Source: Porphyra umbilicalis
Lineage: Eukaryota; Rhodophyta; Bangiophyceae; Bangiales; Bangiaceae
Assembly (NCBI GenBank): GCA_002049455.2
Contig: KV918976.1
Coordinates: forward strand, 1 to 64,000
Length of the DNA: 64,000 nucleotides
Direction of reading: 5' to 3'
The notes beneath the pieces were generated by a model. It saw only the letters and a program-made list of their open reading frames with translations. It made no database searches and had not been told where the DNA came from. Numbering within the stretch: the first letter of the stretch is position 1; each line of letters starts with the position of its first letter. Shown here one piece after another: positions 1,412 to 40,433 of the stretch. The translations under genes were made by a program, and so were the position numbers.

Positions 1412-4400
1412 TCAACCGTGCTTGGCGAGGAGCCGAGGGAGGAAAAGGACAATCAGGAGAGCCACGCTGAACAAAAGGGCTGCGAGCACGGACGTCAAAG
1501 AGAACGTGAGTGGGAGGGGGCCGGAACGAGCGCGACCATGTGCTCGAATGGACTGTAAGGTCCGGCCGTACAACACAGCATCAGGGTGCCTCGGGCCCAA
1601 GTGGGCCACGGCTCTGGCGAGGGCGCCATCCTTTTCCGGGTCGTGCTCCCCTGTCGACACGACATACTTGCTCCACCGCCCGGTAGAGCGTCAGCGCCTC
1701 GTTGTACTTGCCGAGGTCTTTCAGGACGCCAGCAATGCTACTCTTCGTGTCGAGCACGCTGGGGGTGGTCCTCCCCGAGCGCGAAGACCCTCTTCCGCTC
1801 CAACACCTGGTACAGCGTCAGCGCCTCGTCGTACTCGCCGAGGTCTTTCAGCACGCCGGCAATGCTGTGCCGCGTGTGAAGCACGCTGGGGTGGTCCTCC
1901 CCCAACGCGACGACGCTCTTCCGCTCCACCACCGGATACAGCGTCAGCGCCTCGTTGACTCGCCGAGGTGTTGCAGCACGCCGGCAATGCTGTGCTGCGC
2001 GGTGAGCACGCTGGGGTGGTTCTCCCCCAGCGCGACGACCCTCTTCCGCTCCACCACCCGGTACAGAGTCAGCGCCTCGTTGTACTCGCCGTAGTGTTCC
2101 AGCACGACGGCAATGTTGTGCTGCGTGTCGAGCACGCTGGGGTGGTCCTCCCCCAACGCGACGACGCTTTTCCGCGCCACCTCCCGGTACATCGTCAGCG
2201 CCTCGTTGTACTCGCCGAGATGTCTCAGCACGCCGGCAATGTTGTGCTGCATTGTGAGCACGCTGGGGTGGTCCTCCCCCAGCGCGACGACGCTTTTCCG
2301 CTCCACAACTCGGTACAGCGTCAGCGCCTCGTTGTACTCGCCGAGGTCTTCCAGGATGCCGGCAATATTGTGCTGCGTGTCGAGCACGCTGGGGTGGTCC
2401 TCCCCCAGCGCGACGACCACCTTCCGCTCCACAACCCTGTACAGCGTCAGCGCCTCGTCGTACTTGCCCAGCTTCGACAGCATGAAAGCAATGTTGTGCT
2501 GCGTGGTGAACACGCTGGGGTGGTCCTCCCCCAGCGCGACGACCCTCTTCCGCTCTACCACCCGGTACAGCGTCAGAGCCTCGCTGTACTTGCCGAGGTC
2601 ATTCAGCACGCCGGCAATGCTGCTCTGCGTGTCGAGCACGCTGGGGTGGTCCTCCCCCAGCGCGACGACCCTCTTCCGCTCCACCACCCGATGCAGCGTC
2701 AGCGCCTCGTTGTACTCGCCGAGGTCACTCAGCACGCCGGCAATGTTGTGCTGCGTGGTGAGCACGTTGGGGTGGTCCTCTCCCAACGCGTCGACCCTCT
2801 TCCGCGCCACCTCCCTGTACAGCGTCAGCGCCTCGTCGTACTTGCCCAGCTTCGACAGCATGAAAGCAATGTTGTGCTGCGTGGTGAGCACGCTGGGGTG
2901 GTCCTCCCCCAGCGCGACGACCCTCTTCCGCTCTACCACTCGGCACAGCGTCAGCGCCTCGTTATACTCGCCGAGGTCTTCCAGCACGTTGGCAATGTCT
3001 TGCTGCGAGTCAGCCGTCGAAGTGTGCTCCGACCCGAGGCTCGAGTGTACCTCTGCGTGCAGCGCTTTTGCGATGTCGAGTGCCGCGTGGAGTGCAGAAG
3101 TGCACGTATAGTAGTTGCGCAAGCCGTCCATCAGTGTCCAACGCCCATTGTCCTCTAGGTTGTCCGCGCCACCCACACACGTTTCGATTCCCGGCTGGAC
3201 CAGCAAGGCCTCAGTGTGCGGCGCGACGGCCTGCCAAGAGGTCCACGTCGCACAGTTGTTCTTCGAGAAGCCGGCCGTCATCGCGAGCAGCTTGTTGACC
3301 AAGCCGTCAGCCACCCGCTGCCGCACGTCCGTCGCCATCTGCGCGAGCGCCACCGCCTGCACCAGTCGGTGGATGGACAGCAGACCCGGCCCCGGGTAGG
3401 TCACGATGGCCAAGTCCCACAGCCGGTCGGTCTCGGCGCCATCGCCGAGCACGAGGTCGCGCGGCGCCTTGTCCGGGGCGAGCATGGCCAGTCGCTCAAG
3501 CGTGCGGTAGTTGGCCGCATCGAGCTCCCCGCACGCCGTCAACAGAGCACCCACCACCGACTCGCGGCGCGCATAGTCGGGCAGGTCCGGCACGTTCAGC
3601 GCGCGGGCCGACGGGGCGTTGCCCCGCACGCTCTTGAGCACATCTGAAAACCCGGCGCCGCTGCGCTTGGCGTAGGCCGCCAACACGTGCACGGCCAGCG
3701 GCAGATGCCCCACCTCGGCGCACAGGTCAATGGCGGCATCCAGCTCAATATCCACGTCCACTCTGCTTCCGTCCCATCTGCGGACGTCGCGCCTGCTGAC
3801 CAGGCCCAGCAGAAGCATCGACTCGCCAGGCGTGAACGGATTCAGCGGCAGCGCAGCGGCATCGGGAAATTTGCTCGCATCCCGAGCGGTGAAGACACAG
3901 CGGTGGCACCCGCCCCACGGTATAAAGCGCTTCAGGTCATGAAAGCTCTCGGCATTGTCAAACACCAGCAGCGTCCCGCGTCCGGGTAACCTCCCAAGGA
4001 AGGCCGTCACCGCCTGCGCCCGCTCTGCCATCGAACGGCCGTCGGGCCTCGTGTGCAGCACGTGCAGCTCCGTGCCGAGTTCGACCAGGTCGGCCTCGAC
4101 ATGGCCAACGTGCTCCGCTCGGAGCCACACGATGAGGCTGTAGGCGCCCGACTCGCACTGCAGGTGCGCCCATTTGGTCACGAGCATGCTCTTGCCGACG
4201 CCGGGGAGACCCGTCGAAGCCACCACCGTCATGCCGCCCGCCTCCACGTTGTCACTCAGGAGCTTCATCGCTTCCACGCGGCCAACAAAGTGCTTGGGCT
4301 TGTCCGGCAGCTTGAACGACCGCCGCTTCTGGTGCACAACCGGCTTCATCTCCCTCCACGGGGACGCGTCGCCCAGCCGCTCATGAACAACCGACAGCCG

Positions 4401-5042
4401 CACTGCGCACTTGTTCTTGCCGGACTTGTGGGCGCTCACGTGCACCGCAAAGGCGTGGCACTTGGAGTCGAGGAGCATGCCGCCCGATGAGCCTGCCGCG
4501 GTCGCCCCTTGGTACCGCACTATCCACGGCATCGCCGCCGCCGCCGCGGAAGACTCGCCCCGCACCAGCTGGCCGCGTGCTTCCACCACCAGGTCCGCGG
4601 CCCCACTTGGGTGGTGCAAAAGCGTAAAAAGGCCGTCATCACTAACGTCGTCGGCGCAGGCCGGGGTCAGCTCGCACGGTACAGGTTGCGCGGGGAAGCG
4701 GCGCTCCGCCGGCAAGAAGACCACGGCCACGTCGGGCGGCTCGTTCGCCCCGTCGCCCTCCTCCGCAGGCACGAGCAAGACACGCGCGCCGATCAGGTCT
4801 ACCTCCTCTCTGCCCTGGACGATGGCCGTCACGTGGCCCGTCACCTCCCCATCCACCCCCCCTTCCCCAGCGGTCATACTGCCCTCGAGCACGTGGCGGG
4901 CCGTCACCAGCGCCGCGGTGGCGTCATTGCGCACCACAAAGCCGGTGCCGGTCTTCGTGTTGCCGCCCACTTGTAGGAGGCACACCGCCTGCTTGCACGA
5001 GTCCAGCTTCCAGGCCCAGTCCATGTTGCAGGCGCCGTCCAT
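1412..5042 (-). pseudogene. STAND receptor: trypsin-like protease, NB-ARC NTPase, TPR array, C-terminal membrane anchor (three frameshifts near the 3' end)
   Basis: From the ATG at 5042 the first frame runs 1032 codons to 1944. Residues about 20-230 are a trypsin-like serine protease with a complete triad: His50 in TARHVL, Asp104 in PDVAVV, Ser186 in GSSGG. An NB-ARC/STAND ATPase follows: P-loop GLPGVGKS at 278-285, Walker B LLVFDN at 358-363, sensor-like CVFTARD at 382-388 and GHLPLAV at 445-451. A helical region leads to kinesin-light-chain-type TPRs of 42 residues each, eight intact. Comparison between repeats shows a missing base near 1955, an extra G near 1765 and two missing bases near 1670. 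Across these the TPRs continue to about eleven and end in a hydrophobic segment encoded near 1420-1500. By family, such proteins sense a ligand through the TPRs, oligomerise with ATP and activate the N-terminal effector; here that role is inferred. An open frame extends upstream to 5288, so the start is uncertain. The indels could be assembly errors. Confidence 0.85.
1680..3010 (-). repeat. 126-bp tandem array encoding TPRs
   Basis: About eleven direct repeats of 126 bp (42 codons). Phase markers such as CTGGGGTGGTCCTCCCC recur exactly 126 bp apart, for example at 2137 and 2263. Units differ mainly at the codons after the EDHPSVL motif and in the helix turn before LGEYNEALTLY. The near identity at DNA level implies recent expansion or gene conversion. 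The antisense strand is also largely open through the array, which is a by-product of the repeat composition. Confidence 0.95.
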
Positions 5043-6666
5043 GCTGGTCACAGGCACCGCATGTAGCGGCAGGGCCGACGCCGCTGGAACAAGACGCACA
5101 GGGAGGCAGGCACAGTGCTGGGCCGTAGAGCCGACGACGCTACAGCACGAAGCACACCGAGGCACCACCGCTGCGCAAAGGGCAGAAACACAACGCCGAC
5201 GGACTGACCGCGACCTGGCACTCGCCGTCGACAGCACAGCTCGGTCCAGCACAGAGGCGCGTCGCCAGCGCGCACAACATTGCTGCACAGTCGGGCGAGA
5301 ACCACGACCATGCGCTGTACCTTAGAATCGGGACATCGGCATGCACACGGCAGTGTGCACGAGGGATGTCCAATCTGATGGTCGAGCCAAACCGGTTAAA
5401 CCGATTTTCGGTACGACTCATGAGCGATTCTAAACCGTGTCGTAGTTTGCCGTAAAACCTTATGGATAATCTGTAACTACAGAGTCATCACTCGAATCCA
5501 TTCAGCCGAGGAACTCGGCTGTACTCTACTGGTCAAGATGGCCAACACTGGGTGTGTGAAACGCTGTGTTCAAGCTGATAGAGTCACTTTCCGCTGATGT
5601 CGCACCCTGACGCACATGACAGGCATACAGGAACAAATATGCGTGCCACGACGGGAAATCATAGGAAGCCCCCCAAGGACAGGTGGGCTAGTAGCGAACC
5701 TTCTTTTTTTCAACTTGTTGATGGCCCTGTTCTGGACCGAAGTGCGTTCAGAACCTTTGCCGCGGGGTGGTATAGTACGGGCGCGGGCGCGATGGCCGCG
5801 CCCGCAGAGGAGACGTCGCACGCCAGATGATCGTGCCTATCGTCCTTTTCGGACGCAAATCGCATCGTGGCGATTTGATAGGCATCGCCCCATGGCGAAA
5901 CCGGCCTCGCGGATAGCATTGGGGGTCACAATGCAATGCCGGATCGGCCGCCGCGATGCGACGCAATTATTTGTTTTAATTTGTTCCGAGAGTGGTGGGT
6001 AGTCTAAGCCACCTCAGGATGTGGCTTCGAGGGACGTGAGTGTCTGTCTGCTTATGCCAGACAGGAGTCAGTGCTGACACACTATGCCAAGTCAAAGAAA
6101 GCAGGGCGGGCTGTGAAGGGGGGTGAGCGGGGGACCATAGACGGCCGAGAATCAACAGAGCTGAGCAACGTATGCTACAATTCTTGACTACGTTCTCATC
6201 ACACCCCAATGCCGAAAGCTCTGAGAGGACGGCCAAGGCGTTCCTGTACCAAATATACAAACCACAGCGTGGGAGCACCAAGAAACCATTCTTTGGGGCA
6301 AGAGAGGGCTGGAGAAATCACCTGCTGCGTGCTCGGAAGCAGCACAGGAGTGTGAGTGTGCTGTCTTCAGGGGGTCTGCCAAGCAAATGGAATGTGACCG
6401 CCGTATGGAGCTTCGTTTTGTCCGACGTGCGCAACAAGAATGAACCTGGCGCACCGGCAAACATGGTCTGATGCTGCATCCGAGCGGTGGGTCTTGAAGT
6501 GAGGCGGCTCCGCCACCCGCTCGGTCGGCGGCGTGCGCCCCCGCCTCTGTCACACCCCCTGCCCTGTGAGCCCCGTCGAAAATCCCCGAGTGCGCGGAGT
6601 AGCGACGGTCGAGCCACCACCGCCACCATGGTGGAGTGGTACCACTCCGCTTGGCGGAGCGGCGAG
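5043..6666. other. Intergenic stretch with one strong hairpin
   Basis: No convincing gene. Positions 5834-5884 form a nested hairpin: outer arms TGCCTATC and GATAGGCA, inner arms AAATCGC and GCGATTT around a 6-nt loop. A short plus-strand frame (6172-6471, about 99 codons) has an ATG but no recognisable domain. Base composition is less GC-rich than the flanks, as expected for intergenic DNA. Confidence 0.5.
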
Positions 6667-11944: not shown

Positions 11945-14900
11945 GTGGTGGGGACGGTGTCGGGCACCCGGCGCGACCCAAAACTGGGGCGAAGACCGAA
12001 CCCGGCCAAGCCGGCGAACGGCGAGCCCGCGACCCCTGCGCGACCCCGGGACTCGGGCGAAGGGCGCGCCTCGCCAGCCGCTGCGCTGCCCGCGCCCTCG
12101 CCGCAAGTGGAGGATGTTGAACTCCCGGACGCCGACCCGGCGCTGCACACGCGGATCCGCCGTGTGCTGGACTATCACAAAGCCATGAGGAAAGGCCAGG
12201 CGCTGGGCGTCATCACGGCTTCGCAGCACCGCATCGACCTCAGCACCGGCGCCCGGCCCATCTGCTTCGCGCCACGTCGCGCGGGCCACACGGCGCGGCA
12301 GGCCAAGACGGCCGAGGTCAAGCGGCAGCCGGAGGCGGATGTCATCGAACAGACATCGTCGGAATGGGGCTTTCTGGTTTTGCTCATCACCAAAAAGGAT
12401 GGCACCTTCCGTTTTTGCGTCTATTTTCAACTGCTGAATGTCGTGACCAAGAAGAATTCGTACTCACTGCCCCGGATAGACGAGTGCATCGACAGCCTCG
12501 GCGAGGAGACCATCTTCTCGACACTGGATTGTAACGCCGGCTACTGGCAGGTCCCCATCGCGCCCGAGGACCGGTAGAAGACGGCTTTCGCGAGCCACGA
12601 GGGCGCCTACAAGTGCAAATGAATGCCGTTCGGCTTGATCGACGCGCCCGCCACTTTCCAGCGGGCACTGGATGTCGAATTCTCCAGGGTGAAGTGGAAA
12701 ATCTGCCTCATCTACCTCGATGACGTCTTCTTGTACTCCAAGACGGAGAGAAAGCTTTTCGGCCGTGTCGTCCGCGTCTTGCGCCTACTGCGCGATGCTG
12801 GAGTGACACTCCGCCTGCTCAAGTGCCGTTTCTTTCAGAAGACTGTGGAGAACCTTGGGCACTAAATAAACGCACGCAAGTGCAAGGCTCGTGGCGATGT
12901 GCAACGTCCTCCGCCGGTTCGTATCGAACTTCATCCGGATGGCGGCGCCATTCACGGACCTCATAGGGACCACGGCACCTGTCCTCGTGCCCCCCGCGAC
13001 GCCCCTGCAGCAGCAGTCTTTCGACCGGCTTAATGAGGCACTCACGACCCCACCGGCTCTCGGACTCCCGCGACGCGGGCGCAAGTATGTCCTCGACGTG
13101 GACGCCTGCGGGACGCAGGTAGATGCCACCCTGCTCCACGAGCAGGACGACAGAAAGCTCCACCCGGTCGCGTATATGAGCCGGCGGCTGGCGACGAACG
13201 AGCTTCCCGATGAGATCTCACAGAAAGAGTGCCTGGCGGTCGTCTGGGCTTCGCTCAAGCAGCGCCCCTACCTCGAGGGTGACCACGTTCTCGTGCGCAC
13301 GGACCACGACTGCCTGCGGTGGATTCTCAACATCGGAGGTTCGGGGAACCCCCGCCTGGCGCGCTGGCGCTTGCGCCTGAGCGAGTCGGAGATTGACGGT
13401 GCGTACAAGCTGGGAGGGACGCACTACATGGCGGACAGTATCTACCGCCTGGAGTCTGGGGGCAGCGACGAGACGGCGTTCGACGACGCCATCCCCTTTC
13501 TCGCCGTGCCGGCCAACAAGGTCCGGGGGCTCGATGCCGCCAACAACGTAGGAGGCCTCACGGTCCGTGGCATCGACGGAGGCGCGGTGCTCTCGGCCCA
13601 AGCCGGCGATGGGTACTGCGAAGGAATCGTCGCGGCCCTGAACGCCGGCCGGCGCATCCCAGTCTTCGAGGATCTCGCCGGGATCCTTCGCCAACGCGCG
13701 GCACCCTACGGTGCGCACCAAGTGGTGGTCTCGGCCTTCTTGAAGGAGCAGGTCCTCCACTTGGGGCACGAAGCGACCCTCGCGTGGCACTTCGGTGAGT
13801 CCCGTATGTATGCGGCAATGCGGCGGTATTACTGCTGGGTGGGCATCGCGGGCTATGTGTCTGCTATGTTAAAAAATGCGACAGCTGTTCCCGGCAGCGG
13901 GTGCGGCCCCTGGCACGGCACTCGCTTCTCGCCCTGTTCACGGCCATGATGCCCTTCCAGGACATTGTGGTGGATCTCTACGGGCCCCTCGACAAGACGG
14001 CCGCCAGTCACCGGGTCATCCTGGTGATTAACGATGAATTCACCAAGCTGGTGCGCGCCATTCTGATGGACGGTACGTCCGCGGTGGACTGCGCCTCGGT
14101 CGTCCTGGACTACTGGGTGGCCGCTAATAGTTCGCCGGACCGGCTGCTGTCGGATGGGGCACACCAGTTTACCAGTCACTTCTTGGGCCAGGTTTGCAAC
14201 CCGCTCTCCGTCGAGCCGATGGTGACGTCACCGTCGCACCCGCAAGCGAATGGGAAAACGGAACAGTTTAACCGCACGATGCGTACGATCCTCAACCACT
14301 ACGTGGTGGAATATCCGCGGTCGTTGTACTAAGTCCTAGGGGCCCTGACGCTGGCGTAAACGAGCCGTCCGCACCGGAGCACCGGAGTCGCCCCGTCGGA
14401 GCTGGGAAATCACATGGGAGTGGCGAGCTGGGCCTTCAAGGACGTCCTGAAGACCTGGTCGTACCCGCTCACGGCGCAGCGCGGCACCGCCGCCGAGAAA
14501 CGGGCCCGAGCCGCCCTGCTGACGCGGCTGGTTTAGGTCATCCCTCAAATGCGGGCAACGTTAAAGAGGACTCAAGGGCGCTACAAACGCGCCCACGACA
14601 AGTGTCTTGAGCTGCGCGCGGAAAAGCTCACGGTGGGTGGGTGCGCGTGGCTGCGCGATCACGCAGACGAGGAGAGCGCCGGTGGAAAGCTGACGCATGT
14701 CGCCCGAGGCCCGTATCGCGTGGTCTCCACGGACGGCCCCACAGTCCTCCTGGACGTGGATGGCGAGCACCGCTGCGAGAATATCGCCCCTGTCATCCGA
14801 GCTTCGGGCTCGGCCGCCGAGTATCCCGCCCATTACCCCGCTCTGCGGGAGGCTCGCTCCTACCACGGGACGGAGGCCGACGGCCAGCGGTATGCCGTGG

Positions 14901-17254: not shown

Positions 17255-20170
17255 TTACATCTCGTGTCGTAGCGGCGGTCGGGCGCGGCGGGGTGGGGGG
17301 TGGGGCTTTTGGTTTTTTGTTTGGTTCGCGGGGTCGTCCGACGGACGGGAGACCCGCACCGGCGGGCAAGGGGCGGCGGCCCTGCGGCGGGCAGCAGCAA
17401 CCCTTGGGGACCCGAGAAGAGAGCCTGCGGCTGTATGGGGCGACAAAAGGCTACCTAACACGATCGGAACAAGCGCGGCGCATATGGCGGCAGAGCGAAG
17501 CTCTTCGGCGTGGCTGCGGTACTCCCACACGTAGACAGGGCGACCCGCCTGGCGCAGAACGCGCCGCAGAACGGCGTGAAACCGCTTCGCATACGTACAA
17601 GGGGACTTTAAGCACGGTGGGACGACGCCGGCGAGCCCGATGCGGGCGTACTTGACCAAGGTGGCGGTGACTTCCCGGGGACCCACCGCGGTCCAATTGA
17701 TGGACGGGTCGTACCCGAACAGGGCAACGACCTGCCCCGACGTGAGCGAGTCCCGCAACTCCGTGGCCATCACAGGGGTGGGAGGCGTCCACGTTGCGGA
17801 CATCCACCAATCGTAGGCCACATCCGGCTGTCCCGGGACGGAGGTCACGACAGGGCCGAAGACCCCCAGCTCCATCGGCGCCATAGCGGGCCCGTCGCTG
17901 GCGGAACCGGCGGCCCAGCGCCCGGGGCGCGAGTCTGCTGGGCAGTGCTCCGAACGCCAGTAGCGGTCGGCGCTAGTACCGCAATTGCGGCCGTTGGCGC
18001 TAACGGAAAACCACACGGCTCCGCCACGGCCGGAGGACGCATAGCCGCGACCGTCGCCCGGACCGGCGGCCGACCACGCGTGGTCACCCCGTACGTCGGC
18101 GTGGCATCCGTACCCACCCTCTCCGCGATCGTCGCGGTCAGGACGGTAGGGAGCGGCGCCAGTGCCCATCTAGGGTGCCCAGCCGCCACCGAGCCCGTCG
18201 CCGGCAGCACCGGACTGGTCGTCACGCCACGACGAGGCCCAGCGATCGGCGTGAGCCACGCTTGCCCCCTCCTCGCGCGGAGGCGTGCGGGGGCCATACT
18301 CGGCGCTCTTCGCCAGTGTCGACGCGGCGGAGCCGCGGATGACAACGGCGGGGCCACCGGGGTCTCCAGCACTTGCCTTCTCCTCATCCTCCTCCGGCTC
18401 CCGGGACCCCGGGTGGCACGCAAGCGCCCCCGACGCGGTAACGGCGAACACGCCGACCGCTGCACCCGGAGATGCGACGGCCTGGGACCCAAAAACTTGA
18501 GGCCCGGACCGGGCTGGACAGCCGCGCGCCATGTCGCCGTGACGACGCTTTTGCGAGCGGTACGCGGCCGACGCGGCCGCCTTCTCCACCGACGGCGGGA
18601 CGGCGTCCGGGCCGCATAAGTGACAGCCGGCCGGCACCGCCCAGGGCTCCGTCGTCACGGGTAACGCCCGTAGGGCGACGGCCGCGAGCTGTGGCCTTGC
18701 CAGCATGACTCGCAGTGGGGCTTGTGACGACCGCGGGACGCTCACGACACGGACGTATTGGCACCGGCGGTCTGCCTCGGTACCCACCTGGTGGCGGAGC
18801 AGAGTGCTCGGGGCTTGACGGGTAGGGTCGCGGTAGTGGGACAGCCGGTCGAAGACGGCCGCCCAGGGCACTGCCCTTGCAATGGCGTTGTACTCCTTAA
18901 AGGCGTCAGAGACGGCGCGGTCGCCCGGCGCGAGGTCGTCGACCGAGAACTGCCCCATCAGGGCGAAGTATCACGGAGACGGCTCGAAGACGCGATGCAT
19001 TTCGAGGTGCATGCGCAGCAACTTCGACACGACGGCGGCCGTCATCATGACGTAGGCCGTGCCCTCGATGGGGTGGCAGGGGGACTCCTGGAGCAGGGGC
19101 TGCTGATGGTGCACCACGGCCGGGTTCTCGTAAGGAAGCAACCGCGATATCGCTGACCTCGTGATCGTCGCCGGCGGAAAGGGGGCACGAGCCAGTGTCA
19201 AGGAGATGCCGGAACGGACGGGCATGAAAAGGGCCCCGCGCCCCGCCCGCCGGGCGCTCACGAGCTCGCCGCGCGCGCGTCGCGCGGCCTCCTACTCCAG
19301 GTCCGCCGCGGCCGTCACCGGGCCCACCAGGGCAGGGGCGATCAGGGGTCCCACACCCCCGAAGAGCACAAGGGAAAAGAAGTGTCCGAACGGGACCGCA
19401 GGGCGGTGACGCAGGCGGGTGTGCCAGTCCTCGAGGTTGGCGCACTGCTTGTCGCCGGCGAAGAAAGGCAGCTCGGCCGCGGGGTGCGGATCCCTGAGAA
19501 CCCGCCCCGGGTTGCTCCGCAACATGCAGCGCAACAACCCCGCTCTGTCATCGACGGAGCGGACGAAGGACGCGAAGTCGCGCTCGGCCGCCGGCCCGGC
19601 GTCGTACCCCGCAGCCTTGGCGAACTCCCGGAGGGACCGCCACACGGCGAACGCCTCGCCCGCGGCGTGAGGGTGGGCAGGACGGAAGATGTCGCTGATA
19701 AGCGGCCAGTCGGCCGTGGCCACGGTTGACCCCAGCGGGGCGAGCCACTCCCAGACGGCGGGCGCCATCTGGCGTGGAGAGGGCGCCGGGGCAGACTGCC
19801 TTAGCAACTTGAGACGCTCCACCGGAACAACCACGAGGCCCCCGCTTGAGGACGGAGAGGGCCCCGACCCGGGTACGGGCTCCGGGGAGACGGCGACTTC
19901 GCCCCCGGCACTTGCCGCGGCAGCAGCGCCCGCGGGGCGGGGCGGCCTCCGCCACTCCCGGCCGTTCGGGTCGTACGGTAACCAAATGCCCGGTGGCACC
20001 GCCGGGCGGGCGGGTGCGGACGAACGATGTTCGGTCGGCCCCAGCGCTGCCGGCACGACGGCAGCCGAAAAAGTCCTCAGCGAGGCGGTGGAGGCGTCCG
20101 GGCGCGCGGAAGCCGTAACGGGCGACGAACTGACGCAGCCGGAAGAGGGAGTCGCCGGGGACGGCTGCAT
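17255..20170 (-). pseudogene. Long unrecognised reading frame with three in-frame stops (retroelement gag suspected)
   Basis: From the ATG at 20170 one frame continues about 970 codons to a TAA at 17255, broken only by TAG at 19292-19294, TGA at 18971-18973 and TAG at 18170-18172. Sequence between the stops looks coding: the first part has a Pro/Ala-rich leader and a helical block with PAVWEWLAPLGSTVATADWP and DWHTRLRHRPAVPFGHFF. The middle carries a Cys cluster CHLCG with later His and Cys. The last part has NCGTSADRYWRSEHC, loosely like a zinc knuckle, and VVALFGYDPSINWTAVGP. I recognise no family. The helical block followed by Cys/His clusters would fit a retroelement gag, but that is inference. 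It lies head-to-head with a plus-strand gag-like fragment at 20811. Confidence 0.5.
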
Positions 20171-20810
20171 TGTGGCGGTCGGGGGTCCCACAGTTGGAAG
20201 GGGCGTGGTCCCTCTGCTGTGGACAGCACACCCCCGGGCGCCGTCCCAAAATATCCGGATCCAGGCCAGCACGGGAATGACCTGTCCAGATCTCTGGGAG
20301 ATTGGATTCGGTCGGGGGCGGAACTTTTCCCCTGTGGATTCCCCGGCCCCCCTACTACTTGTTTGAACTTTTCGCTTTGGAGGGATCTATCTGTTTGGCT
20401 CCTTTGGGGCGGCTACTTTAGCCGCCAGCGTTCGGATTGGGGAGGGGTTAATGACCGTGGGGACGCCGTCTCCGTCACCGTTTCATAAAACCAACTGTGG
20501 TTTGGACTACGTTTCCCTCTTGGGCTTTGCCGTGATCCCCTCCTCCCGTTGCGGGCAGGCTGGGCTGTGGGTCGATTTCCGGGGCTGTTCCTTCGACGGA
20601 CCGAGCTGATCAAGAGGTCAATTCGGCAAAACGACAAACCAACGTGGTTGTGCCTAGATCCGCTACAATTTCTGGTGGAGCAGCAGGGGATTTCGGCCGT
20701 TGCCATGCCCGTACCGGGTGGCCGGTTCCCCGATCGTCTGTTGGTTTGTGAATTCAAGGCGACGTAAATCTCCGCGTCGGTCTGTCGTCGATTACCGCCC
20801 GGCCACTACG

Positions 20811-21194
20811 ATGGCGTCGCCGCCCGACCTCACCAAGTTGGACGCGATCGCTAACGGCATTCAGGCGGGTACATCCGCGGTGACCCCAGCGGTCGCTGCG
20901 ACAGGGGTATCCGCGGGTGGATCAGGGATTCCCTTCTCTCCGCCTCGGCCATTGGCGGACCTAGTGGGCGAAACGGTACGGCGGGTCCCGCCGGGGGCCG
21001 ATGCCTTTCTCCCTTGACATCACGACGAACGGACGGGATTGGTGGATCAAGATCGGGGTTCGGCGACGCCTCTGGCGATGGCAGATCTGGACACGGCGCT
21101 GCCGACGTTCCGCGAGTCGTTACTTGCCGACGTTTCTCGGGTCATCGCGGCAAGCCCTGAGGGCTCTGCTCAAAATGTTCCCCGCCGAGATTCC
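20811..21194 (+). pseudogene. Gag-like N-terminal fragment, cut off by copia B LTR
   Basis: An ATG at 20811 opens a 68-codon frame (MASPPDLTKLDAIANGIQAG) that stops at 21017. Plausible continuation lies in another frame, with LDTALPTFRESLLADVSRVI at about 21080-21150. The sequence ends abruptly where the truncated copia B LTR begins at 21195. The preceding 20290-20700 segment is leader- or LTR-like non-coding DNA, with TGGTGGAGCAGCAGGGG near 20673 in the position of a primer site. Family not identified. Confidence 0.35.
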
Positions 21195-21613
21195 TGTTAA
21201 AACGCAGAGGGGATAGGGGTTGGGGGACCACGGTGAAGTGGTTGAGTGGCTTGAGCTTGTGTGTGTGTGTGCGAACGTGCTTTGTTTGGTTGTCCTACGG
21301 TTCGCCTGCCTCTCCCAACCGAGAGCACCTCTCAAATAGTCCCCACCGGCCTAAGTGCTCCCCCCTCTCGCGCCCACACCGACGCCCACGCCCTCGCACC
21401 AAATCGAATCACTCACCAAATCAAAAGCCACTAGATCAAAGCGAAGATCAAATCCAAAGCACGCCAAAAGTAACGCCCCAAGACCACCCAACACGAATGT
21501 GTGCAACTTGACCACGTCTTGCAAATGTACCATGTGGGGTACCATAAGGGTCACCGACCATCATCCACCCGCGAACCGCCAGTGGAGTCGGCGACAATCA
21601 TCACAGTCCAACA
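21195..21613 (-). repeat. Diverged copia B 3' LTR
   Basis: Begins TGTTAAAACGCAGAGGGGAT on the plus strand and ends CCAACA. It aligns with the LTRs at 42531 and 47327 over most of its length, including GGTGAAGTGGTTGAGTGGCT. A polypurine tract (AAGGAGGAG on the minus strand) borders it at 21614. It lacks the tRNA-like GGTTCGAACCC segment present in the younger LTRs. Confidence 0.8.
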
Positions 21614-21648
21614 CTCCTCCTTGCTTTTTGCAGCGGCGGTTCTTGTAT

Positions 21649-22407
21649 TCAGCAAAGCCCCATGGCCTCGACATGCTTGTCGTGCTTGGTCTTGCCGAGC
21701 TCCTTCGTCATCGGGTCCGCCACCATGTTGTCCGTTGCACAATGTTCCAGTGTCACCTTGTCCATTGTGATGGCCTCGCGCACGAAGTGGTAGCGAATGT
21801 CGATTTGCTTTGTGCGCTTGTGCTCGACGGGGTTCTTAGAGAAGTCAATGCACCCGCTGTTGTCGACCTTGATGTTAATCGGTCCGCCCGAGATCGCTGT
21901 GCAGAGCACGTGAGATGCCACGCTTTGCACGAGTTTGTTGAGCCAAACAGCTTCCTTGCTGGCCTCACGTAGAGCCATGTACTCGGCTTCCATCGTCGAC
22001 AGCGCCACCGTCTTCTGCAACTTAGAACCCCAGCTGACGGCTGCTCCGCCAAAGATGAAGGTAAAGCCCGTCGTAGAACGTCGCGTCTCGTGGTCACCCG
22101 CCCAGTCGGCATCACTCAAGCCTTGTAGAACACAGGAAGAGTTCTTATCAAAGACCAGCCCCTTTTCCATCGAGCCCTTGACATACCGTAGAACGCGCTT
22201 GATCGCCGCCCAATGCTCCTTGCCGTAGCACGAGACAAACCGACTCAGCTTCCCGATGGCGAAGGCCAGGTCAGGACGCGTCCCGACCATCAGGTACATT
22301 AGACTGCCGACGGCTTCGCGGTAGGGCAGCGCGTCGTCGCTCTCGTTGGCCTTGACCAGCTGCAGGCCCACCTCCAGCGGCGTTCCGATCGGGTTGCACT
22401 CCGCCAT
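21649..22407 (-). pseudogene. Truncated copia B RNase H fragment
   Basis: The C-terminal part of a Ty1/copia polyprotein: end of RT (ECNPIGTPLEVGLQL, VGSLMYLMVGTRPDLAFAI), then RNase H with LSDADWAGD, STMEAEYMALREASKEAVWL and the tail KRTKQIDIRYHFVREAI. It is collinear with the C-terminal part of the copia B element at 42531-47872. Everything upstream (gag, protease, integrase, most of RT) is missing: homology stops at the codon for the Met of MAECN at 22407, where repeat R begins. No stop interrupts the remaining frame, so the truncation may be fairly recent or the copy young at the time. Confidence 0.9.
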
Positions 22408-22919
22408 CGTCGGCAGTCCTGCCCTAGGTGAATTTTTGGTTCCTTCTTGGCGACATATTGGCGACACACAGCGGTCGAGTGTCGCCATCGTGTCGCGCAG
22501 GGAGGCTAACTGTGTCAGAGACGGAAGCACTATGGGAGCACGCCGGCACCGGATAAGCATCCGGCCGTGCCGGATACAGGACAGACTTACGCAGGGCCCG
22601 AATGCACTTAGAAGCGAATTTATTGAGCATCGAACAAGTCGTGTATTGATGAAGACTTATGAAGACTTATCGCACACTTGAAACAACTACGTATCTATGC
22701 ACGCGGTCTCGTCAAGTGCATTGCAACGGGAACGCACTAAGAGCGCGGGCCAGTCAGGTCGCAGACGTCAGCCAGACACACTCATCATGTCTGTCCGAAT
22801 GGCCCACAGCGCTCATGGATCAATCGAGAGTCGGTTCGAATGATTACAGGGCCTCCCAGACGCGGTGAGAGAGACCCGAGGATGCAATCAAAGATGCAGG
22901 TCATGGTGTGGCCACCGAG
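22408..22919 (+). repeat. Dispersed repeat R, copy 1, left part
   Basis: Matches the reverse complement of about 48345-48859. It starts CGTCGGCAGTCCTGCC at the junction with the truncated copia B fragment and ends at CCGAG, the target duplication of copia A. It continues at 28773 on the other side of copia A. No transposase or TIR recognised. Confidence 0.85.
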
Positions 22920-23318
22920 TGTTGAGGCCGCCCCCCAAGCCCGCGCAGGTAAGTCGGAGTTACCGCGGACTGCCTGGATAATTCCGGGAGTACTTATGCG
23001 GTCACCGGCTTGTTTGCCTGTGCCATTGTCATGCATTGCTGTGTGTGTGTGATGTCATCACTTGTACTTGTATATTGAGGGCAGCTCCTTTTGGAGCTGA
23101 GCTTGGGGAGATTCTCGTGGGGTCATCAAGGGGCGTCGCGATGTGTGGGGTGGTGAGAGCATGTACCCTCCAAGGGAGGGAGCACTGCGCTGGCGGGGGA
23201 GTGCGCCGGCAGAACGTGGCGAGAGAGGCACACGGAGGGTTTATGAGCCTGCTGGCCTCGCGCCTCAGACCGTTCTCGAGTAAAGCAACGCATCCACCCA
23301 ACTACCGCTCATTTCACA
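22920..23318 (+). repeat. Copia A 5' LTR
   Basis: 399 bp, TGTTGAGG to TTTCACA, directly followed by the primer site. It contains a TGTGTGTGTG run and a GTATATTG motif near 23070 that could act as a promoter element. The pair at 28374 differs at about twenty positions. Confidence 0.95.
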
Positions 23319-23332
23319 GGTTATGGGCCCAG
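23319..23332 (+). other. Copia A primer-binding site (half initiator tRNA-Met)
   Basis: GGTTATGGGCCCAG immediately follows the 5' LTR. It is complementary to the anticodon arm of initiator tRNA-Met, not to its 3' end. Drosophila copia is known to prime from such an internal tRNA-Met fragment. The same 14 bases occur next to the 5' LTRs of copia B and C. Confidence 0.85.
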
Positions 23333-23475
23333 TTGTCGCTGGTGGTAACCGTCGTCTTCCCTGCGGTCGCTGGTGAGACGACGTCCCTGGGATCGCGGTG
23401 TGTTTCGGCGTCGGGCGGGCGTGTTCTGCTCCCTACGTCGTTAGTGCGGCGCTGTGCGGCGCCGAGGTTATCAAC

Positions 23476-26400
23476 ATGGCAGACCATGGCCGCTATGGCG
23501 GCCCGCGGTTTGCGCAGCTGGATGACGACTACAAGGTGTGGGCAGCGTACCAGCGTGCGCAGCTCAAGAAGGAGAAGCTCTGGGCGGCGGTCGTGACGGA
23601 CCGACCGGCATCTTCGTCCGACGACAAGAAGTCCGACCCGGTGGTCGACGCGTGGGACGCCATGAACGAGGCGGCGCTGGCGACCATCCAAATGTCGGTC
23701 AAGCCCGTGCATCTCAGCACGGTCACGTCGGTGGACATGGCCAAAGAGGCGTGGGACGCGCTCAAGGTCATGTATGAGGCGCGAGACAACGCGCAGTTGC
23801 TGCGGCTCATGGACAAGCTGAGCTGCCTGAAGAAGGGCGGCGACGAGAACATCATCAAGTTTGCGTCGCGCGCCAAGATGCTCCGGGACCAGCTCGCCAT
23901 GCTCGGAAACCCGGTGGACGACAACACGCTTGCGCTGCGTGTCCTGGCAGGGCTCCCGGCAGAGTACGGGATGCTCAGGACGGTGTTGGAGAACAAGGAC
24001 ACTAAGCTCGTCATGTCCGACTTGACGGCTAAGCTGCTTCAAGTCGAGCAGCGGAGCATTTCTGTCGGCGCTTCCAAGCCTTCTGGCAGTGTCAAGTCAC
24101 AAGCCTTTTCGGCAGCGGCGCCTAAGAGGCCGTTTGCCAAGAAGTCGGTGGTGTGCTTCTACTGCAACAAGAAGGGACATATGCAGCGCGACTGCCACAA
24201 GAAGAAGGCGGACGAGGCCAAGGGCAACGGCAAGCCCGGCGGTGGTGGCCGTGAAGGCGGCCACGGCGGCGGGCCCCACGCGGGTGCCGCTCTGGAATAC
24301 ACTGCTTCTACTGGAAATTCCGGGAGCAGCAAGGCTCGCGGCAGCTCCCTATGTTCATCAACTTGGGTGCTCGAATCGGGCGCAACCAACCACATGGCTG
24401 CCGGGGATAAGGGTTTCACCGTCCGGACGGCGGGAAGCGGGGCCGAGGTCACCTTGGCCAACGGCGAAAAGGTACCCATCAAGGGGCACGGCCACGTCTC
24501 CATGGACGTTGGAAAGGGCAAAACCAATACGCGCATGGTGCTCGGGGAGGCCATGCTCGTGCCGGACCTGACCAGCAATCTGCTCTCGGTTCGAGCGGTT
24601 GACCGCAATCGTGGTGCGGTAGTGTTCGTCGGAAACGCCTGTTACATCCTCAGCGACGGGGATGCTGTCCATTCGAGCGGAGTGCTCGAAAAGGCGTCCG
24701 TTGTCAGCAAGGTCAACGACCTGGAGCAGTACGTGCTCAAGGTCACGCCGGTCAAGGCGTCGGCGTGCGCGGCATCGACGCGCATCGCTGGGGAGGCGGA
24801 GCTGTGGCATCGTCGGTTCAACCACTTGGGGTTGGAGAACCTCAAGCGGGCGGCCACAATGGTCGACGGCATGCCGTCGTCAGTGGCAGTCGCCAAGCGC
24901 GTCATTGTTACGGTGTGTGTGCCGTGTGTGGACGGCAAGATGGTTCAGTCGCCCAGCCCCCGCTCGTCGACAGCAACAACCAAGTGCGAACTGGTGCACA
25001 CCGACATTGGTGGCCCACTTACCGAGTCGCTGGGTGGCTCGCTTTAGTTTATGACGGCGCTGGAGGACTCAGCAGGGTTCATTACGGCTACGCCGATCAA
25101 GACAAAGGGGATGGCGCCAGAGGTGCTCAAGACGCGCATCAAGCAGCTTGAGACGCTGACGGGCGTGAAAGTGAAGCGTGTTCGTCACGATGGTGCAAAG
25201 GAGTACGTCACGAACGATCTGAAGGCGTGGTACGAGGATACGGGCATCACGTCTGAGATGACGGCGCCGTACAAGTCGCGGCAGAACGGCAAGGCGGAAC
25301 GGGTGAACCGCATGCTGATGGAGCGCGTGCGTGCTGCGCTACTTGACGCCGGTGCGGAGGAAGAGCTGTGGGCCGAGGCGTTGGCCTCCGTCCTCCACGT
25401 GCTCAACCGATCTCCCAAGGCGGGGCTCGATGTGACGCCGCTCGAGGAGCTGACGGGTCGACGCCCCAACGTCGCGGGATTCCGCGTTTGGGGGAGTCGG
25501 GCGTGGGCGCTCAAGCCGAAGAACCAGCAGCGCAAGCTGGAGCCGAGGACCGACGTCGGCCGCTTTGTCGGCTACACTGTCGGTGGCAAGGCCTACCGCA
25601 TCCTCGAGGACGAGACAAACCAAGTCTTCGAGCGTCGGGACGTGCTGATGGAGGAGAACCCGGCGAAGGTCGAGACGTCAGCAGTCGGGTCAAGCGCTGG
25701 TCCCCGGCTGACTGCGGAATATGACGGCGACAAGGACGGCGCCACGAAAGGGGCAATGGACATGCTCGGCGCAGAAGGCGGGCGAGAGGACGAGTACTCC
25801 CCCGACGACACCTCTGACAGCGACAACGAAGTCGGTCCTCCTTCCTTTGCTGGCGATAGCCAGGAGGAGGACGAGGACGGTGTCGGTGGCTCGACACCCG
25901 CCGCTACTCAAGCACCTGCGGCCAGTGACAGCGTCGCACCGGGGCCTCGTCGCTCGAATCGCAAGCCAGCTCCCAAGGTCAAATGGTGGGAGAAGGAACC
26001 CAAGGCGTACTTGGCAAGCGGTAACGCTTCCGCGGCTGAGGCGGGCTGGGACTTGCACAAGCCGCCTGCAAACGAGAAGGAGGCGCGCGCTCGTCCTGAC
26101 TGGCCGCTGTGGAAGCAGGCCATTAAGGAGGAGGTGGCGGCACACAAGCACCTTGGCACCTGGTCCAAGACCAAGGGGAACAACAAGAATCACAAGGCCA
26201 TCAAGACACGATTCGTGTTCGACACCAAGCACGACGCGGAGGGCAAGCTCACGCGCTACAAGGCTCGACTCGTGGCCCAAGGGTTCAACCAGGTGCCCGG
26301 ACGAGACTTTGACGAGACGTGGGCTCCGGTACCCAACGCGGCCACGACACGTGCTCTCTTTGCTGTGGCAGCAGCCATGGGCTGGGAGATTCACCATGTA

Positions 26401-27909
26401 GACGTCAAGACAGCCTTCCTTAACGCCAAGATGGACAAGGAGATGTACATCAAACTCCCCGACGGTGTCGAACCGGAGGGGCTGGAGGAGATGTGTCGGC
26501 TTAACCTGGCGCTCTACGGGACAAAGCAGGCGGGGCGGCTGTGGGGCATCAAGCTCGACAAAGAGCTCAAAGAGATGGGGGCGGTCCGGTCCAAGGTGGA
26601 CCCGTGCCTATATGAGTGGCACCACCCCGTGCACGGGTGCATCTTCATCCTCGTGTACGTCGACGACCTTATCGTGGCAGGCGAGAAGCTGGCTGGGGTT
26701 GAGGCTGTCAAGCGCTCCGTGTCTGCCAAGTTTGAGGTGCGCGACATGGGGGAGGTCAAGGACTTTATCGGCATGAAGGTCATGCGCAACCGGGCGGCCA
26801 AGGCTCTGACGTTGAGCAACCCGGGGCACACCGCGACGCTGCTGGAGGCGTTCGGGATGGACAAGGCGACGCCAAACAAGACGCCGATGGCGTCGGGGGT
26901 CAAGCTGACCAAGACAGGGGAGGGTCTGCTGCCAGAGGGCAACCGTTACGCCGAGTTGGTAGGCTCCCTCCTCTACCTGTCTACCACGACGAGGCCAGAC
27001 ATCGTCTTTGCCGTGGGGGTGCTGTCGCGCTTCATGTCCTGCCCTGAGGAGGACCACATGCGCGCGGCCAAAGGAGTTCTGCGCTACCTGTGCGGGACGA
27101 CTCGCCTGGGTGTGGTCTGCAGCGGCAGCGAGCCGCTGCAAGGATTTGTCGACGCCGACTGGGCCGGCGACATCGACGGTCGTCGGTAGACAACCGGTTT
27201 CGTCTTCACCTGCTATGGCGGGGCGATTGCGTGGGCAAGTAAGCGCCAGTTGACCGTGGCCACATCGACGGCCGAGGCCGAGTACGTGGCCGCCGCAATG
27301 GCAACCAAGGAGGCGCTGTGGCTACGCAAGCTGCTGTCGGCTCTGGGCGTCGACGGTGGAGCCGTGGCGATGGGGGAGGACAACCAGTCCTGCCTGGCGC
27401 TGGTCAACAACCCCGAGGCGACGGGGCGGACCAAGCATGTGGACGTCGCCTACCACATGGTTCGCGACTACCAGGCGCGCGGGGATGTGGCCTTCTACTT
27501 CCTCCCGAGCGCCGACATGCTGGCGGATGGGCTCACCAAGCCGCTGCCGTCGCCGGCGTTCACGGCTTTCCGGGCTGCCGTCGGGGTTGGCAAAGACCTG
27601 GGCGCGGCTGAGCGGGGCGCCGGGCCTGGCGACCCCCTGTTGGGAGATTGCCGAGGCGCCATGGCGCCACTGGAGGCGTCCAGTGGCGCGGCCCCGGATT
27701 CGCGGCAGCGACCTCCGTCGTCCTTGCCGCGGGCCGGTACCAGTCGTGGACGGTTGCGCTACCCTCCACTTGTTTGGGGCCGGCGATGGGGCGCTGTTGC
27801 CTTGGGGGGAAGGCCGGTTGGGACCGTCCTTGGGCGCTGTGGCGCCACTGGGGGCGTCCAGTGGCGCAGCCGCGGTTTCCCGGCGATCGCCCGACTCGAT
27901 TTGGCCTAA
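23476..27909 (+). pseudogene. Copia A gag-pol polyprotein, two in-frame TAG codons
   Basis: One frame from ATG 23476 to TAA 27907-27909, broken by TAG at 25045-25047 (consensus Tyr, judged from copia C) and 27187-27189 (consensus Ser). Domains in order: UBN2-type gag (DDDYKVWAAYQRAQLKKEKL), CCHC knuckle CFYCNKKGHMQRDC, protease region, GAG-pre-integrase (ELWHRRFNHLGLENL), integrase with HTDIGG and QNGKAERVNRM, RT with YVDDLIVAG, RNase H with DADWAGD and STAEAEYVAAAMATKEALWL. The protease site reads LESGATNHM, where copia proteases have Asp, so the catalytic residue is lost. Termination of pol proper is probably near 27600, since copia C ends there; the last 100 codons are GC-rich trailer. All core integrase and RT residues remain. 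Confidence 0.93.
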
Positions 27910-28290
27910 GTCGATTTTGGGCCGTTCGGCCGTGAGCAGTAGGCCTACTGCTCCCGACGGGCCCGAATCGATTTTGGTGCAAGTCGAATTTGGTCGATTT
28001 TGGCCGGAAGTAGTCGGCCCCGATTTTGGCCGGGAGCAGTAGGCCTACTGCTCCCAGCGAGCAGACTTTGACGGCCCGCCAATGCGCCGGATCGTCTCCG
28101 TTCGAGACGCACCCGGGTGCGCTGTACTCACCTCGACGTCTGCTTCACGTCAATGGTGATTTCGGCGATTTTGGCCGAAGTCGATTTTACTTGGCCAAAA
28201 TCGGGTCGACTCGGTGGGAGCCGTAGGCCTACAGCTCCCACCGAGTCGACCTGATTTCGGCCAAGTCGATGAGATCGACTTGGCCGTTTT
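27664..28290. repeat. Palindrome cluster between pol and 3' LTR of copia A
   Basis: Six inverted repeats lie in about 630 bp. Two share arms GCGCCACTGG/CCAGTGGCGC with 6-nt loops (27664-27689, 27842-27867). Two are perfect palindromes centred on AGGCCT: 20 bp at 27934-27953 and 24 bp at 28032-28055, half-site GGGAGCAGTAGG. One is a 44-bp near-perfect palindrome at about 28207-28250. One has arms GGCCAAGTCGAT around GAG (28259-28285). Stems are GC-rich and would be stable in RNA or single-stranded cDNA. Confidence 0.9.
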
Positions 28291-28373
28291 CTCGATCGCG
28301 GATGTTGGCGAAAGATCTCGCACCCTGACCGTGGCGGAGCTTGCATGGCGCGGACTGTGGGGCGCTGGGGGAG

Positions 28374-28772
28374 TGTTCAGGCCGCCCCCCAAGCCCGCGC
28401 AGGTAAGTCGGAGTTACCACGAACTGCCTGGATAGTTCCAGGAGTACTTATGCGGTCATCGGCTTGCTTGGCTGTGCCATTGCCATGCATTGCTGTATGT
28501 GTGTGATGTAATTACTTGTACTTGTATATTGAGGGCAGCTCCTTTTGGAGCTGGGCTCGGGGAGATTCTCGTGGGGTCATCGAGGGGCGTTGCGATTTGT
28601 GGGGTGGTGAGAGCATGTACCCTCCAAGGGAGGGAGCACTGCGCTGGCGGGGGAGTGCGCCGGCAGAACGTGGCGAGAGAGGCACACGGAGGGTTTAAGA
28701 GCCTGCTGGCCTCGCGCCTCAGACCATTCTCGAGTAAAGCAGCGCATCCACCCAACTACCGCTCACTTCACA
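28374..28772 (+). repeat. Copia A 3' LTR
   Basis: 399 bp, TGTTCAGG to CTTCACA. It is preceded by a polypurine tract GGGGCGCTGGGGGAG ending at 28373. It has the same length as the 5' LTR and is flanked by the CCGAG target duplication. Confidence 0.95.
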
Positions 28773-36092: not shown

Positions 36093-39000
36093 TCAGCACT
36101 GCGGCGCAGGACGTAGGGCCCGCGTGCCGCTACTCCCCGAAGTGCCCAGATCCGAGCCAACGCCGATGACGCCCCGGAATGTGGTGAATGCCGGGGCCGG
36201 CAGTGGCTTCGTCATGCCATCTGCGGGCATGTCGGCGCTGGGAAGAAAGTAGAAGGCAACCTCCCCACGCGCGACGTAGTCGCGCACCATGTGGTACGCA
36301 ACGTCTACGTGCTTGGTACGCCCGGTGGCTTCGGGATTGTTGACCAAAGCGAGGCACGCCTGGTGGTCCTCCCCCATGGGCACGGCGTCCCCGTCGACGC
36401 CCAGCTCCGACAGAAGTTTGCGCAGCCACAGCGCCTCCTTGGTCGCCATAGCGGCGGCGACGTACTCGGCCTCGGCCGTTGACGTCGCCACGGTCGACTG
36501 GCGCTTGCTCGTCCACGACATCGGCCCGCCATTGAGGGTGAAGACAAAGCCCGTCGTCGACCGACGAGCGTCAATATCGCCTGCCCAGTCTGCGTCAACG
36601 TACCCTTGGAGAGGCTTGTCGTCGCCGTACACGACCCCTAGTCGCGTAGCCCCGCGAAGATATCGGAGCACCCCCTTGGCCGCGCGCATGTGGTCCTCCT
36701 CGGGGCATGACATGTAGCGGGAGAGCACGCCCACGGCAAAGGCAATGTCCGGCCTCGTCGTCGTGGAGAGGTACAGCAACGAGCCAACAAGCTCGGCGTA
36801 CCGGTTGCCCTCGGGCAGTAGATTCTCCCCCGTCTTGCAAAGCTTGGCACCTGACAGCATGGGCGTCTTGTTAGGCGCAGACTTGTCCATCTGGAAAGCC
36901 TCAAGCAGGGAACTGACATGCCCCGGATTGCTCAGGGTGATCACCTTGGCAGCCCGATCTCGCATGACCTTCATGCCAATGAAGTCCTTGACCTCACCCA
37001 TGTCGCGCACGTCGAAAGACGCCGACACCGAGGCCTTGACCATCTGGACCCCTTCGAGGCTTTTTCCAGCCACAATGAGATCGTCCACGTAGACGAGGAT
37101 GTAGACAAGCCCGTGCACAGGGTGGCTCCACGTGTAGAGGCACGGGTCCACCTTGGACCGGACCGCTCCGATGGCATTGAGCTCTTTGTTAAGCTTGATG
37201 CCCCACAATCGTCCCGCCTGTTTGGTCCCATAGAGAGCCAGGTTCAGACGGCGGACATCACCTTCCTCCCCCGGCTCGGCTCCGACCGGAAGCTTGATGT
37301 AAATCTCCTTGTCCATCTTTGCGTTGAGGAAGGCCGTCGTCACATCCACGTGGTGAACGTCCCAGTCCTTGGCCGCCGCCACCGCGAAGAGCGCGCGTGT
37401 CGTGGCCGAGCTCGGCACTGGTGCCCATGTCTCATCAAAGTCGCGCCCCGGCACTTGGTTGAAGCCCTGCGCCACCAGTCGCGCCTTGTACCGAGTCATG
37501 TTGCCCTCAGCATCGTGCTTGATGTCGTACACGTACCGCGTTTTGACAGCCTTACGCTTGTTGCTGCTCCTGGTATTGGACCAGGTACCAAGCTTCTTGT
37601 GTGCGAGGTACTCTTCTTTCTCAGCCGCCTTCCAACGCGGCCAGTCCGATCGCGCACGCGCCTCCTTCGCATTGGCTGGCGCCTTGGTCAGGTCCCATCC
37701 CGACGGATCTCCGCCCTTGGGTCCTTCTGCAGCGTATGCCTTTGGGTTACGCTCCCACCAGGTAACCTTGGGTGCCGGCTTGCGCTTCGACCGCCGGAGT
37801 GCTTGCACCCCGTCGTCACTACTCTCTGTAGTGGATCCAGACAGCACGTCGTGTCCATCATGATCCGCCGCGTCCTCGCCAGCGTCATTGTCATCTCCGT
37901 CTTCTGCGTCGAGTCCGGAAGCCTCGTCCGGCTCAACGTCGCTCTCTGACGACTGCTGCGAGGCATACTCGTCCCCGCTTGCGGCTTCCGCTTCCAGCAT
38001 GTCCATGGCGCCGTCCTCCTTGTCACCATCCGTCTGACTGGTCAGGAGAGGGGTGGAAGCAGGGCCAGGGACAGAGGTCATCTTGATGGCTTTGCTTGAG
38101 GTCTTCTCCATGAGCACATCTCGGCGCTCAAAGACCTTGTTTGAGCCATCCTCTAGGATGCGGTAGGCCTTGCCACCAACAGTGTAGCCGACAAAACGGC
38201 CGACGTTGGTCCTGGGTTCCAGCTTTCGCTGCTGCTGCTTGGGCTTCAGAGCCCATGCCCGGCTCCCCCAGACCCGAAATCCCTTCACGTCGGGGCGTCT
38301 TCCCGTGAGGGCTTCCAGCGGGGTCACATCTTGACCCGCCTTAGGGGATCGGTTGAGCACGTGGATGACGGATGACAAAGCCTCCGCCCACAGCTCCTCT
38401 TCCGCTCCGGCGTCCAGAAGAGCCGCACGGACGCGCTCCATGATGTACCGGTTGGCGCGCTCTGCCTTCCCGTTCTGCTGCGAAGAGTACGGCGCCGTCT
38501 TCTCAGACGTAATGCCTTTGTCTTCATACCAGGCTTGAAGGTCGCGGCTCACGTACTCCTTGGCGCCATCGTGACGAACCCGCTTCACCTTAAGCCCAGT
38601 TAGGGTCTCTAGCTGCTTGATGCGGGCCTTGAGGACATCCGGAACCATGCCCTTGGACTTGATGGGCGTCGCCGTGATGAACCCAGTGGAGTCTTCCATC
38701 AGAGTCACGAAGTAGACAGAGCCGCCCAGCGACGCCCTCAACGGCCCATCAACGTCCGTGTGAACCAACTTGCACTTGGTGGTGGTCGTTGTCGAGCGAT
38801 GATGCGGAGAACGCGCCATCTTTCCGTCGACACAAGGCACGCATACCGTACCAGGAACGCGCTTGGCGTCGGCTACCGTCGATGGAATCCCATCGACCAT
38901 CCCAACCACACGCTTGAGGTTCTCGAAACCCAAATGGTTGAACCGGCGGTGCCACAGCTCTGCCTCGCCGTCCATGTGCGTGGAGGCGGCTCTGGCCGAC

Positions 39001-40277: not shown

Positions 40278-40419
40278 GACGATGACAACCACGCCAGCAG
40301 GCGCGGCACTGACGACGTGGGAGGCTATACCCACCTGCCCGACGCCGGAACACACGGCAACCCAACCAAGGTCGTCCCGCCAACAACGGCACGGAAGACG
40401 ACGATGACCACCAGCGACA

Positions 40420-40433
40420 CTGGGCCCATAACC
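40420..40433 (-). other. Copia C primer-binding site (half initiator tRNA-Met)
   Basis: CTGGGCCCATAACC on the plus strand, directly inside the 5' LTR. It is the same site as in copia A and B and is complementary to the anticodon arm of initiator tRNA-Met. Confidence 0.85.

Follow-up and report, generated by a model that had tools for sequence, protein, structure and literature searches.

A minus-strand gene of the red alga Porphyra umbilicalis that joins a trypsin-like peptidase to a STAND NTPase and a TPR array, a candidate immune receptor

The first 64,000 nucleotides of Porphyra umbilicalis contig KV918976.1, referred to here as the window, carry a minus-strand gene whose product combines a trypsin-like serine peptidase, a STAND (signal transduction ATPase with numerous domains) NTPase and an array of TPR repeats. 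The listing of open reading frames and Pfam place all three parts within a single uninterrupted frame (1944..5288, minus strand), which counts 1,114 codons from a GTG and 1,032 residues from its first ATG at 5042. The longest stop-free frames in the window reach 1,492, 1,125 (this gene), 812, 752 and 713 codons, and because other long stop-free frames exist, the length of the frame is weak evidence when taken alone. Its domain content follows the order of an NLR (NOD-like receptor)-type protein, with an effector, a STAND module and a repeat sensor. A first-pass annotation had proposed this layout, which was borne out: effector, STAND module and sensor do belong to one protein, and that protein is red-algal.

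The peptidase occupies residues 1 to 243 counted from the ATG (4314..5042, minus strand) and was identified by Pfam and by alignment with five Streptomyces domains. Trypsin_2 matched the whole open reading frame with an E value of 1.1e-7 (33.1 bits, cut-off 27.6) and the protease domain as sole query with an E value of 1.8e-8 (35.7 bits, same cut-off). In the alignment, His50 (TARHV, 4893..4895), Asp104 (DVAVV, 4731..4733) and Ser186 (GSSGG, 4485..4487) stand in register with the invariant His, Asp and Ser of the five Streptomyces proteins, so that the complete triad noted in the first pass holds. Other searches for relatives of the protease were negative: the PDB sequence search and a tblastn search of plasmids gave no match at E values up to 1, a protease-plus-NTPase query gave none in phages at an E value of 0.01, and single-sequence pattern scans of viral contigs and genome contigs found no relative.

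The STAND NTPase follows at residues 244 to 630 (3153..4313, minus strand) and is FxsT/Apaf-1-like. It comprises a nucleotide-binding domain, helical domain 1 and a winged-helix domain (NBD-HD1-WHD) with further helices behind them. The P-loop (GLPGVGKS, 4188..4211) and Walker B motif (LLVFDNAE, 3948..3971) are intact, as the first-pass annotation had stated, and their key residues (the Gly and Lys of the P-loop and Asp362 of Walker B) do not vary in alignments of 14 and of 47 sequences. His558, within the MHD-like motif SIHRLVQ (3357..3377), is likewise invariant in 47 sequences; together with the NBD-HD1-WHD fold it places the domain among STAND NTPases. The highest-scoring curated model was the NCBIfam family FxSxx_TPR (NF040586), with 368.2 bits for the whole frame against a cut-off of 300, and with an E value of 7.3e-40 and 137.2 bits for the NTPase half, which is under the whole-protein cut-off. 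Three Pfam families matched the NTPase below their cut-offs, namely AAA_16 (0.0017), DUF7779 (0.0057) and NB-ARC (0.0067); thus, among the families anticipated in the first pass, Trypsin_2 and TPR_10 were recovered and NB-ARC remained sub-threshold. PADLOC includes Avs models, and none of its Avs STAND models matched the gene at E values up to 1; its matches were to TPR (4.3e-5), RT-Protease_XI (best 9.1e-4) and PDC-S45 models alone.

The sensor expected from the first pass is indeed long. TPR_10 matched eight stretches (E value, 1.5e-67), and Pfam together with a 126-nucleotide repeat period define eight full 42-residue units (2028..3035, minus strand); the whole array covers residues of about 634 to 1032, the eight full units being followed by a truncated ninth. 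We take positions 2, 5, 9, 12 and 13 of the TPR motif (unit positions 9, 12, 16, 19 and 20) to line the ligand groove. Among units 2 to 8, these five positions of 42 hold 125 of the 266 nonsynonymous differences (47%), and with the more divergent unit 1 included they hold 173 of 433 (40%). The proportion of nonsynonymous differences (pN) in units 2 to 8 was 0.485 in the groove versus a synonymous proportion (pS) of 0.299, and 0.082 versus 0.172 outside it. Since the groove positions were applied after the per-position variation was known, the window result is not blind, whereas bacterial arrays provided fresh data: in 10 of 10 qualifying arrays (16 examined), pN was higher inside the groove than outside it, and the permutation P was <0.05 in 9, although in one (L076) groove pN was lower than groove pS. 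The groove share in bacterial arrays ranged from 17 to 40%, a range that the window array exceeds on units 2 to 8 and whose top it equals when unit 1 is kept. Two further groove positions, canonical 33 and 34 (40 and 41 in the unit numbering), show hardly any variation in the window array, and the units are not independent because they are related by duplication. The groove-enriched change is consistent with an array whose ligands differ; it is a family trait and by itself no proof of immunity. Units 5 (2406-2531) and 2 (2784-2909) share 94% DNA identity, other pairs among units 2 to 8 sharing 80 to 90%, a difference that hints at a recently copied unit or at gene conversion.

Relatives of the NTPase occur in bacteria. 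A tblastn search returned 66 plasmid records, 42 of them from Streptomyces and the others including Nocardia, cyanobacteria, Herpetosiphon and Prosthecochloris, at 22 to 33% identity among the 60 matches listed. Full-length Pfam searches of ten plasmid relatives gave TIR_2 in one and EAD10 in one, a Nostoc protein, and no peptidase family among the matches listed. A pattern scan of prokaryotic genomes gave at least 396 relatives, and 78 loci were kept. Thirty-five of these have at least 120 residues before the NTPase and were scanned for N-terminal families; the others were left aside because their N-terminal part is too short for such a peptidase. In the 36 N-terminal regions (these 35 and that of the window gene), Pfam assigned TIR_2 to 16 and Trypsin_2 to 5, including the window gene. 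Five of the 78 prokaryotic relatives, all from Streptomyces (L138, L141, L146, L150 and L152), share the trypsin-STAND-TPR layout. Full-length searches found Trypsin_2 in three of them (below the cut-off in L146) and Trypsin (PF00089) in one, while L150, which is close to L138, had neither at an E value of 0.01. Over the NTPase and TPR parts, L146 matches the window gene at 29% identity (E value, 8e-76). Relatedness to bacterial STAND proteins is supported.

In the gene's own genome, relatives are few. Searches of the assembly (83.8 Mb, 665 contigs), all of which give lower bounds, returned, apart from the gene, a pair of related pieces on contig C444 and one TPR match on contig C371 when the query was the whole open reading frame, and one C444 piece alone when it was protease plus NTPase. 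The C444 remnant, on the minus strand at 5104-6639 of the piece extracted from 18500-28400, is a 512-codon frame that by eye starts as copia-like gag and reads on without a stop into the rear half of a related STAND NTPase; TPR-like repeats lie beyond, and the front part is missing. Judged from its sequence, this locus is a retroelement joined to the remnant of a related receptor gene. It is 42% identical to the window gene over 139 residues, and the two pair with a support of 98 in a tree of 60 NTPases. A quick tree puts the algal and the Streptomyces trypsin-bearing proteins apart; a single origin was not rejected (approximately unbiased test, p-AU of 0.219, with a long-branch warning).

Several known systems resemble parts of this protein. 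Apaf-1, CED-4 and the plant NRC proteins share the NBD-HD1-WHD arrangement at about 12 to 21% identity to the window NTPase, but have WD40 or LRR sensors and CARD or coiled-coil effector domains. FxsT, of the FxSxx-COOH peptide-modification system, is the protein that NF040586 describes; the match to that model spans the NTPase and TPR parts and not the peptidase. A close parallel in layout is py07671.t1 of Pyropia yezoensis, entered as Trypsin+NB-ARC+TPR+elF2 in Table 1 of PMC6928737. The domain order is common to the genes of both bangialean red algae; the elF2 label sets py07671.t1 apart, as no elF2 occurs among the 25 matches listed, of 38 to Pfam, for the window gene. The two are putative orthologues, and in the available portion of PMC6928737 we found the gene as a table entry and no discussion of it. 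The domain combination, which the first-pass annotation had thought possibly undescribed, is therefore not new: this entry and the five Streptomyces relatives share it. The same table lists NB-ARC+WD40, NB-ARC+TPR and two TIR+Pkinase genes, and NB-ARC+WD40 and TIR with kinase-like sequence occur in the Porphyra genome as well. Fungal NLRs reviewed in PMC10197012 also fuse a protease to a STAND-repeat receptor, but their peptidases are of the S8 (subtilisin) or CHAT (caspase-like) type, and the word trypsin is absent from the main text of that review. Trypsin-like peptidases are found paired with STAND proteins in bacterial conflict systems (PMC7159879, PMC10907252, PMC8195603). Among seaweeds, brown algae have NTPase-TPR receptors (NB-ARC-TPR genes) for which an immune role has been proposed (PMC8307928); these belong to another lineage, and a protease is not mentioned in the portion of that paper available.

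Taken together, we read the gene as a nuclear, red-algal one whose product is a receptor of the signal-transduction ATPase kind that carries its own protease, a reading to which we give a probability of roughly 0.6. The motifs needed for a switch of the Apaf-1 class are present. In that class, a ligand on the sensor frees the NTPase from a closed, ADP-bound state, and oligomerization follows. By analogy, the TPR arm and an ADP held by the MHD-like histidine would keep the algal NTPase closed at rest, until a ligand, either a protein or a peptide, settled in the TPR groove and opened it. ADP would then be swapped for ATP, and the subunits would oligomerize as Apaf-1 and CED-4 do, so that the clustered N-terminal protease domains could cut a cellular substrate. 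Cleavage might start a death or defense response, an outcome already suggested for bacterial and fungal STAND proteins that bear peptidases; the bacterial STAND-trypsin systems and the fungal S8 and CHAT NLRs serve as models for this output. That the protein works as a switch coupled to a protease is likely, and ligand binding that triggers proteolysis, as the first-pass annotation proposed, is what the analogy would predict. Of all the steps, we are least sure of the immune purpose, for which the odds are about even. The gene is a good candidate for an immune receptor and not a new kind of system.

A number of observations weigh against this reading. The best-scoring curated family is named for the bacterial FxSxx-COOH system and not for immunity, and the NTPase misses the Pfam NB-ARC gathering score (16.2 versus 23.5 bits); of ten bacterial relatives, six pass it, three fall short (21.0, 20.3 and 22.2 bits), and in L061 NB-ARC is absent among the 25 matches listed, of 26 to Pfam. 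Unlike expanding immune families, the gene is, in the searches made, single-copy besides one broken remnant. The Pyropia gene of this layout showed no response to oomycete infection (1.11- and 1.06-fold; PMC6928737). The protease of L146 gave no significant BLAST match to that of the window gene (E value, 0.33). The protease failed to model, and the 3' end of the gene is frame-disrupted.

One alternative is a regulator in place of an immune receptor. MalT and FxsT-type proteins act in this way, and the gene could encode a STAND-TPR switch for the processing or control of some protein or peptide of the cell itself, with the protease as a maturation enzyme. We consider this the strongest of the alternatives and still unlikely, since the same NTPase class bears conflict-type domains, as seen in the TIR_2-bearing N-terminal regions and the EAD10-bearing Nostoc protein described above. 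The groove-enriched change among the TPR units also speaks against it, with the reservation already made about its bearing on immunity.

The disrupted 3' end raises another alternative, that a formerly functional gene is now decaying into a pseudogene. The frame closes at 1944, and from 1944 to 1412 repeats continue in other frames. Further TPR-like repeats lie at 1670..2027 (minus strand), where the ninth unit is cut by a frame change and the next copies are off-frame. Here the 126-nucleotide period slips twice, two steps near 1800-2048 totaling 251 nucleotides and the one between 1670 and 1797 measuring 127. After another frame change comes a strongly hydrophobic tail and a stop (1412..1489, minus strand) in a frame that differs from that of the intact TPRs; the first-pass annotation had run the gene from 5042, which is the first ATG, to 1412, which belongs to this stop in another frame and is not the end of the gene's own. 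At the hydropathy threshold used, a comparable hydrophobic end precedes 4 of the 962 stops in the window with at least 40 open codons upstream, and the tail is a possible C-terminal membrane anchor on sequence grounds. An intron in place of the frame changes is unlikely because repeat homology continues gap-free across the 3' region; possible splice sites were counted. Decay is suggested by these slips and by the C444 copy having become a remnant. It is countered by the 1,032 codons open from the ATG, the presence of the catalytic motifs and the position of the disruptions less than 2 kb from a contig end, a place prone to misassembly. The window starts at the first base of the contig, so a contig-end error and real decay look alike here, and a protease-NTPase-TPR protein persists even without the tail. 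We regard decay as improbable.

A catalytically dead protease, retained as a peptide-binding or dominant-negative part, would accord with the structure prediction, in which all 243 protease residues had an AlphaFold confidence (predicted local distance difference test, pLDDT) below 50 and strands were predicted in low-confidence models. Because His, Asp and Ser are all there and aligned, we think this slightly less probable still than decay.

That the receptor gene is algal was examined through its genome and its codons. Ten of 11 phycobilisome-family matches fall on contig C665, which we took as plastid. One match is a phycoerythrin beta chain whose top PDB match is labeled 'Bacterial fluorescent protein beta'; the next are R- and B-phycoerythrins, and cryptophyte chains rank lower. 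The phycobiliprotein set on one contig and the copia-like elements in the genome point to a red alga, in agreement with the algal source supposed in the first pass. Relative synonymous codon usage of the protease-NTPase part correlates at 0.951 with that of a pool of 20 algal NB-ARC stretches and at 0.831 with that of a pool of the five Streptomyces homologues. Bacterial contamination or a chimeric contig, which the bacterial type of the NTPase and the location at a contig end might suggest, is thus very improbable given this codon usage, the retroelements on the gene's own contig, the C444 remnant on another and the Pyropia gene of the same layout (PMC6928737).

The genome also holds a separate NB-ARC family, with at least 41 places (E value up to 0.01) that do not include the receptor gene. 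WD40 occurs in 16 of the best 20 places, and in these 20, within at most 500 residues upstream of NB-ARC, no peptidase, TIR or other N-terminal family appeared among the 25 most frequent of 40 families; paralogues with other N-terminal effectors, for which the first pass had suggested a survey, were thus not seen there. The 12 Trypsin_2 places found all lie on contigs other than those of the 41 NB-ARC places. A Pfam search of the genome for gasdermin, a possible substrate, gave no match, though the model may miss distant gasdermins and the result excludes nothing.

A wider proposal, which we advance tentatively and hold to be doubtful, is that the gene encodes a trypsin-type 'all-in-one inflammasome' of red algae. 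It would have arisen from an acquired bacterial FxsT-type STAND module, separate from the NB-ARC/WD40 family, and its TPR sensor would evolve through the copying of units, with most change in the groove; the protein, maybe tail-anchored in a membrane, would act in immunity or allorecognition as a receptor that is independent of the NLRs of plants and animals. If the protein works in the manner described for the main reading, one red-algal polypeptide would cover the roles of animal receptor, adaptor and caspase by means of a trypsin-type protease, and a bacterial-type STAND class would be active in a lineage without canonical plant receptors, none having been found in Porphyra umbilicalis according to PMC8307928. 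Nori research would gain one defined candidate gene to test.

Elsewhere in the window, three long Ty1/copia-like elements (23398-27189, 36093-40562 and 43778-47162) have gag, integrase and reverse transcriptase recognizable by eye, and Pfam identifies a gypsy-type RNase H/integrase piece at 12891-13949. Outside the window, two TIR_2 places, on contigs C71 and C187, are long frames with C-terminal kinase-like sequence by eye, and the frame on C187 (55-3060 of the extracted piece, minus strand) contains a long poly-glycine stretch.
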